Under the pieces are notes generated by a model. That model ran no database searches, was not told the DNA's origin, and saw only the letters and a list, made by a program, of their open reading frames with translations. A DNA stretch of 35,733 nucleotides from Chromatiales bacterium (GTDB lineage Bacteria; Pseudomonadota; Gammaproteobacteria; Thiohalospirales; Thiohalospiraceae), in NCBI GenBank assembly GCA_026982395.1, contig JALSHD010000001.1, forward strand, positions 1 to 35,733. Reading direction: 5' to 3'. This document shows, piece after piece, positions 15,313 to 16,994 of the stretch (its first letter is position 1; each line of letters begins with the position of its first letter). The translations under genes and the position numbers were made by a program.

Positions 15313-16087
15313 CGTTCTCTCCCGAGACAAGTTCAATTAAATCTTCACTACCCTGCTGCTCGCGAATGTATTCCTGCAACAGGGCACTCTGCTGTTCACT
15401 CAAATTCAGTTTCTCAAGCAGATCAGGGCGCCGCTGCCAAGTGCGTCCCAATGCCTGCTTCTCCCGCCAGCGGCTGATAGCCTGGTGGTCACCGCTAAGC
15501 AGCACCCCGGGCACCCGCTCTCCATCTATCTGTTCCGGCCGGGTATAGTGGGGGCAATCCAGCAACCCCTGGACGAATGAGTCCTGCTGTGCCGACTCCC
15601 GATGCCCCAGAGCCCCCGGCAACAAACGAACTACACCGTCGATAACTACCATTGCCGCCAATTCGCCACCGCTCAGCACGTAGTCGCCGAGGGAGAGTTC
15701 ATAATCCACCTCGGTCTGGATCAGGCGTTCATCAATCCCTTCATAACGGCCGGCAAGCAGAATGATGCGCTCCTGCTGCGCCAACAGTTCAAGGCCCGCC
15801 TGGTCAAGACGCCGCCCCTGGGGTGACATATAAACAACCTGCGCCGGGGTTGCATCCTGTTCCCGCGCCGCCTGTATGGCCTCCCGCAGGGGTTGCAACA
15901 ACATCAGCATCCCCGGTCCGCCACCATAGGGGCGATCATCTACAGTACGATGTTTATCGTGTGTATAGTCACGCGGATTCCAGGTCTCCAGCTGCAGCAG
16001 CCCGGACTGCACTGCCCTGCCTGTTATTCCGTATCCGGTTATTGCATCAAACATTCCCGGAAACAACGTAACAACATCAAACCGCAT
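15296..16087 (-). CDS. trmD: TrmD, tRNA (guanine-37-N1)-methyltransferase
   Basis: Methylates G37 next to the anticodon of tRNAs reading CNN codons, preventing frameshifts. The start [21 protein letters not shown] at 16087 is the family start; 263 residues. SPOUT-fold signatures are visible: [38 protein letters not shown] and [24 protein letters not shown], the last forming the SAM-binding knot. The ATG shares one base with the rimM stop (TAATG), so translation is coupled. The 3' end carries the ribosome site of rplS. Confidence 0.96.
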
Positions 16088-16599
16088 TAAAACTCCGGAT
16101 CCCAATCCACCCGCATCAGCTGGTGTTCGAGATCGACGTCCACAACCACATCCCCGACAAGAAAGGGGATCAACCGTTCCCGCTCTCCCTGAACCACCAG
16201 CACATCATTGGCGCCGGTCTCCATCAGACTCTTGACCATACCCAACTCTACATCATCGAGGGTGACAACCTTCAGGCCAACCAGATCGGTCCAGTAATAT
16301 TCACCTGCCGCTGTTTCAGGTAGCTGAGAGCGGAAAACAGCAATATCGGCTCCCATCAGAGTAGCGGCCATATCGCGGTCATTACAACCTTCCAGCCGGA
16401 CAACAACACCCTTGCCCTGCTTGCGCCCTTCCGCTACCCGCATCTCGCGCCACTCACCAGCAAGTTTCACCTGCCAGGGGGAGTAGCCGACTATCGCCTC
16501 CCGCGGCTCGGTCCAGGAGTAAACCTTGACCCAGCCGCGGACACCGTACAATCCGGCAATCCGGCCAACAACTATCTTTCGGTCACACTGCTCTGCCAC
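16087..16599 (-). CDS. rimM: RimM, 16S rRNA processing / 30S maturation factor
   Basis: Binds S19 and the 3' domain of 16S rRNA during 30S assembly. The 170-residue protein has the N-terminal beta-barrel ([24 protein letters not shown]) and a C-terminal PRC-barrel ([36 protein letters not shown]). It begins with GTG at 16599; a likely ribosome site, AAGGTG, lies seven to twelve bases upstream. That site is immediately outside a perfect 37-bp inverted repeat that separates it from rpsP, so the hairpin is positioned to influence expression of rimM and the genes after it. Confidence 0.94.
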
Positions 16600-16613
16600 C
16601 CAACATCACCTTG

Positions 16614-16702
16614 GGAGGCTGTCCGGGAATAAAGAGCCTACTGCGGAAAAATGGTCCAAAATGGATTTTCCGCAGTAGGCTCTTTATTCCCGGACAGCCT
16701 CC
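16614..16702. repeat. Perfect 37-bp inverted repeat (giant hairpin) between rpsP and rimM
   Basis: Left arm 16614-16650 and right arm 16666-16702 are exact reverse complements; the loop is 15 nt and contains a further TCCA/TGGA mini-stem. The arms include GGCTGTCCGGGAATAAAG and its complement. It lies 31 bp after the rpsP stop and 14 bp before the rimM start. No U-run follows on either strand, so it is not a classical intrinsic terminator. A miniature transposon-like insertion or an RNA processing/attenuation hairpin is more likely. I see no clear target duplication. Confidence 0.95.
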
Positions 16703-16733
16703 TGGCAGCGTATCGGACCCGCCGTAAGAAACG

Positions 16734-16994
16734 TTACCCGGCAGCTGTCTGATCAGCCGGATGCTGCTTGATCAGCCTGGCAACACGCTCGGAAGTCTTG
16801 GCGCCCTGCGACAGCCAGTAGTTGATACGCTCCATATCAAGCCGCAGCGTCTCTTCGTTACCCCTGGCGACGGGATTGAAAAACCCCAAACGCTCGATGT
16901 AACGACCGTCACGGCGATTGCGGCTGTCTGTGACGACAACATGATAAAAAGGACGCTTTTTTGCGCCTCCACGAGACATGCGAATGGTTACCAT
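16734..16994 (-). CDS. rpsP: Ribosomal protein S16
   Basis: Small-subunit protein needed for 30S assembly. The 86-residue protein starts [21 protein letters not shown] and contains [23 protein letters not shown] and [19 protein letters not shown], all canonical. It is the first gene of the rpsP-rimM-trmD-rplS operon; a GGAGAG ribosome site precedes the ATG and a promoter lies about 70 bp upstream. Confidence 0.97.

Follow-up and report, generated by a model that had tools for sequence, protein, structure and literature searches.

Prokaryotic MITEs, as exemplified by QMITE1 and QMITE2 of Coxiella and Chunjie of Geobacter, are non-coding elements of 50-500 bp, mostly intergenic, with TIRs and short target repeats, and with shortened derivatives present beside full-length copies (PMC10969869). 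In Neisseria, the inverted repeats of the MITEs known as Correia elements (CREE/NEMIS) form hairpins in mRNAs that are cleaved by RNase III (PMC2649163, PMC10969869), and in E. coli template switching at quasi-palindromes makes them perfect, resulting in quasipalindrome-associated mutations (PMC7202029). The window, a 35,733-nt stretch of DNA from a Chromatiales bacterium, has an 89-bp insertion between rpsP and rimM that is very probably a copy of a MITE, probably made palindromic by fold-back and presumably read through in the operon mRNA. Its family resembles prokaryotic MITEs in the features listed above, with target repeats that are exact in some copies and imperfect in others. The likeness to QMITE1, QMITE2 and Chunjie is drawn from such features, and the window copy appears to be a palindrome of the family right end, unlike a simple internal deletion.

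The arms of the inverted repeat, identified by a repeat search of the window, are located at 16614-16650 and 16666-16702, so that the element extends from 16614 to 16702. They are complementary at 37 of 37 positions and are separated by a spacer of 15 nt (16651-16665, ATGGTCCAAAATGGA), as the initial annotation had reported. A 22-nt core of the arm is present at a single locus within the window and has no occurrences in shuffled sequences, and the RNA from 16590-16740 of the minus strand has a predicted folding energy of -93.8 kcal/mol versus -48.3 +/- 4.1 for shuffles (z = -11.0). Based on these two shuffle comparisons, the inverted repeat is far beyond chance. The stem is very stable as RNA, the isolated 89 nt having a folding energy of -77.7 kcal/mol. 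The observation that the hairpin is not followed by a U-run also holds, with no T-run 3' of the hairpin on either strand and a terminator scan silent at this position, and the missing U-run rules out an intrinsic terminator. A known RNA family was rejected as its identity because an Rfam search of the window returned no family at the hairpin above the gathering score; the sole match in the window, close to the end of the contig at 35609-35680 on the minus strand, is to the group II intron family (RF00029, 47.3 bits).

Pfam matches confirmed the products of the operon genes as S16, RimM, TrmD and L19, as had been proposed, and the rpsP-rimM-trmD-rplS operon is on the minus strand. Translational control in this operon has been the subject of older work. 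The upstream gene, rpsP, occupies 16734-16994 (PF00886) and rimM occupies 16087-16599 (PF01782), starting with a GTG at 16599 that is, as initially noted, 14 nt from the nearer arm. The rpsP-rimM gap of 134 nt is 45 nt after subtraction of the element. The native rimM ribosome site, an AAGG sequence, is likely outside the element, in agreement with the earlier statement that the inverted repeat ends just short of that site. At the 3'-end of rpsP (16738-16775) there is also a pair of 19-nt direct repeats that are 79% identical. The L19 gene (14638-15336, minus strand) encodes a protein of 232 amino acids that is unusual in being extended at its C-terminus: beyond a full Ribosomal_L19 domain (11-121) it has a helix-hairpin-helix domain (HHH_5, 149-187).

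The initial annotation had proposed a search of the genome and its relatives for the 37-bp arm. With the 116-bp region around the palindrome as the query, two further copies were found in the 193-contig draft of the same genome, at C133:44821-45031 (211 bp) and C12:24375-24584 (210 bp), that are 91% identical to each other and have the terminal sequence GGAGGCTGTCCGNGAA at both ends. Window positions 16643-16702 align with positions 152-211 of the C133 copy at 92% identity. MITE matches are present in 7 of 95 genomes, a set made up of this genome, itself one of the seven, and its relatives. Members of other families of the class (G063, G068, G086 and G088) have copies of 160-162 and 212 bp. 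Three genomes of the same genus (G003, G004 and G006) have partial or diverged relatives of the MITE. A TIR pattern had 56 matches in G086 and 102 in G088, and the reversed control pattern none. The copies share TIRs (GGAGGCTGTCCGNGAAT), are dispersed at unrelated sites (three in the genome of the window and dozens in G086 and G088), and are small, 89 bp in the window and 57-212 bp elsewhere, with no transposase gene. A full-length copy, 76.5% identical, is also present in a Pseudomonas plasmid within a stretch that has no annotated genes. A phage collection gave no matches to the MITE, and a text search of the literature for the TIR letters returned nothing related, as judged by title. These alignments show that the window element has the same ends and right half as MITEs of 160-212 bp, found both in its own genome and in others of the class. 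Remnants of ~30 bp, reduced to the outermost bases of the two ends, were seen at L068 (4147-4180) and L214 (2678-2710). In MITEs of the same genus, at L046 (G006) and L042 (G004), the inner right-end sequence is common but the outermost ends differ (GAGCCTGTCGGACTTAGG in L046), which suggests either end replacement or mobilisation by another transposase.

The rpsP-rimM gap was extracted from 11 genomes, seven of the same genus and four others, and all 11 lack the insertion. In 10 of these, the rpsP stop codon and the predicted rimM start are separated by 9-56 nt, and in the raw sequence of the remaining genome (G009) there are ~14 nt between the end of rpsP and rimM; at each of these short junctions the inverted repeat is absent. 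In the closest relative, G004, with S16 and RimM proteins that are 99% and 88% identical, respectively, the gap is 35 nt. When this empty site is aligned with the joined flanks of the window element, the two differ by another 10 bp next to where the element is inserted. The related elements, the 11 empty sites and target repeats of the CTAG type (see below) all support the initial suggestion of a MITE-like insertion that the operon tolerates. A conserved regulatory hairpin was rejected on account of the empty junctions in all 11 genomes.

Standard copies of the MITE are not palindromic over 37 bp: when the 37 nt at the left end are compared with the complement of the 37 nt at the right, there are 8-15 mismatches. 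The left arm of the window element has 10-16 mismatches in 37 positions when compared with standard left ends, but only 1-5 when compared with the complements of right ends; for the C133 copy, the numbers are 16 and 1, respectively. Given that the left arm is nearer to the complements of right ends than to left ends, both arms correspond to right ends, and this strongly indicates that the family right end was the source of both. The right arm (16666-16702, plus orientation) is then a standard right end, terminating in the TIR ...CCCGGACAGCCTCC, and the left arm (16614-16650) would be an inverted copy of that end rather than a standard left end. At the same place, some standard right ends have a short inverted repeat, GCGGAAA-16 nt-TTTCCGC in the C12 copy, GGAAAA-14 nt-TTTTCC in the C133 copy and CGGAAAA-15 nt-TTTTCCG in a copy from G063 (G063a), and the 15-nt spacer in the window coincides with the spacer of this imperfect repeat. 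When 369 sampled genomes of the class were scanned for the inner palindrome with a strict pattern, the only match besides the window was a 25-bp hairpin in G062, which is unrelated. In an overly permissive scan that took in every genome contig, no examined locus among the matches listed belonged to the MITE family. The other short copies, of 57 bp (G086 C17) and 82 bp (G088 C71), are non-palindromic and resemble ordinary internal deletions.

The quasi-palindrome of the MITE was probably made perfect by a copying error, a fold-back template switch. A transposase acting in trans would have inserted the element at a CTAG-like target, and during or after this step replication would have stalled at the short imperfect inverted repeat in the right end. 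The nascent strand would then have folded back, paired at the short repeat and copied itself out to the terminus. By switching back to the original template within the matching left TIR, it would have deleted the interior and left the perfect palindrome. Right-end arms, and a spacer at a pre-existing quasi-palindrome, are as predicted by such template switching. As in the E. coli quasipalindrome mutations (PMC7202029), the nascent strand would be the template and an imperfect repeat becomes perfect, but here the arm would have grown from ~7 to 37 bp with loss of the interior of the element, a change inferred, not observed. The fold-back event and the order of events are inferred from the end products, which the product of an inverted-dimer transposition would resemble. 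For the exact complementarity, from which the initial annotation had concluded recent origin or active selection, a better explanation is that the arms are copies of one another, probably through this template switch. In the MITE reading, transcription of the operon would run through the element, and the mRNA would carry a 37-bp hairpin as a possible target of RNase III. The operon presumably tolerates the element because rpsP is intact, as is the presumed ribosome site of rimM. A striking perfect palindrome in a conserved ribosomal operon can stem from a mobile element and a copying error, with no need for regulation. If the fold-back reading is right, the locus exemplifies in nature how a MITE quasi-palindrome is perfected in one step, and strong RNA hairpins could arise between genes by such a route.

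Alternatively, the element could be a MITE in which aberrant transposition gave the palindrome as an inverted dimer, built from two right ends. This differs from fold-back copying in mechanism only and predicts an identical end product (right end, spacer, inverted right end), but the junction is at a pre-existing imperfect repeat with its spacer kept, as fold-back predicts and random joining does not, and we regard an inverted dimer as a rather unlikely origin.

The hairpin might also be selected for RNA processing or attenuation, separating the expression of rpsP from that of rimM-trmD-rplS. It is positioned between these genes, and RNase III cuts duplexes of the type that a perfect 37-bp RNA stem would form. 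Cutting of the hairpin is plausible because it is established for the hairpins of Correia MITEs in mRNAs (PMC2649163, PMC10969869). These elements are, however, from a different host group and are likened to the window element by features, with RNase III action demonstrated there and predicted here. Set against a processing role, the hairpin is missing from this junction in all seven genus members and four further genomes checked, and with a single palindromic copy there is no conservation or covariation to draw on; we consider a selected processing hairpin improbable. Since the insertion is absent from all of the relatives checked, such a device is not ancestral, and the earlier proposal of a hairpin for differential expression at this junction is unsupported. 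For the same reason, a conserved role of the element in gene control is unlikely. It is likewise improbable that fold-back turned a neutral MITE into a perfect RNase III substrate that uncouples the rpsP mRNA from rimM-trmD-rplS in this species, which would be a lineage-specific regulatory site made in one mutational step.

Inverted chimeras occur in amplified DNA and the genome is a draft, but an assembly or amplification artefact, a chimeric inverted duplication, is highly improbable, as the inverted copy stops exactly at the TIR and is followed by unique rimM sequence on the far side, whereas, by the internal logic of the assembly, a fold-back chimera would run on into inverted rpsP-side sequence.

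An exact 4-bp direct repeat is present at 16 of the 28 MITE copies for which both flanks are available, most of the others being one base off, and 15 of the 28 have CTAG on both sides. For the C133 copy, the upstream ORF has its stop codon at the CTAG. The window copy is flanked by an imperfect repeat, TTGG (16611-16614) and CTGG (16702-16705), identical at 3 of 4 positions, with CTAG the family consensus; this follows a 4-bp model in which the G at 16614 can be assigned to the repeat or to the TIR. The exact target is unreadable because of this imperfect repeat and the 10-bp difference at the G004 site. The target of the IS5 group is YTAR, and IS5-type elements and the MITE are alike in having CTAG-like 4-bp target repeats. 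No autonomous element with the MITE ends was found among the DDE_Tnp_1 and DUF772 loci of seven genomes, and the ORFs around single-ended MITE copies in G086 and G088 included no parent transposase with matching ends. An IS of ~840 bp in the same genome as the window (L240 1464-2310, G000 C76) encodes a DDE_Tnp_1 domain and, like the MITE, has CTAG flanks, but is not established as the parent because its terminal repeat, GGTCCAGACTCATAAC, is unlike that of the MITE. A transposase fragment near a MITE end at L064 looks IS256-like by eye. Departures from CTAG beside the terminal G are often from CTAGG to CCAGG, or the complement (L003, L004, L038, L045, L052 and the window), changes of the type expected of very-short-patch repair.
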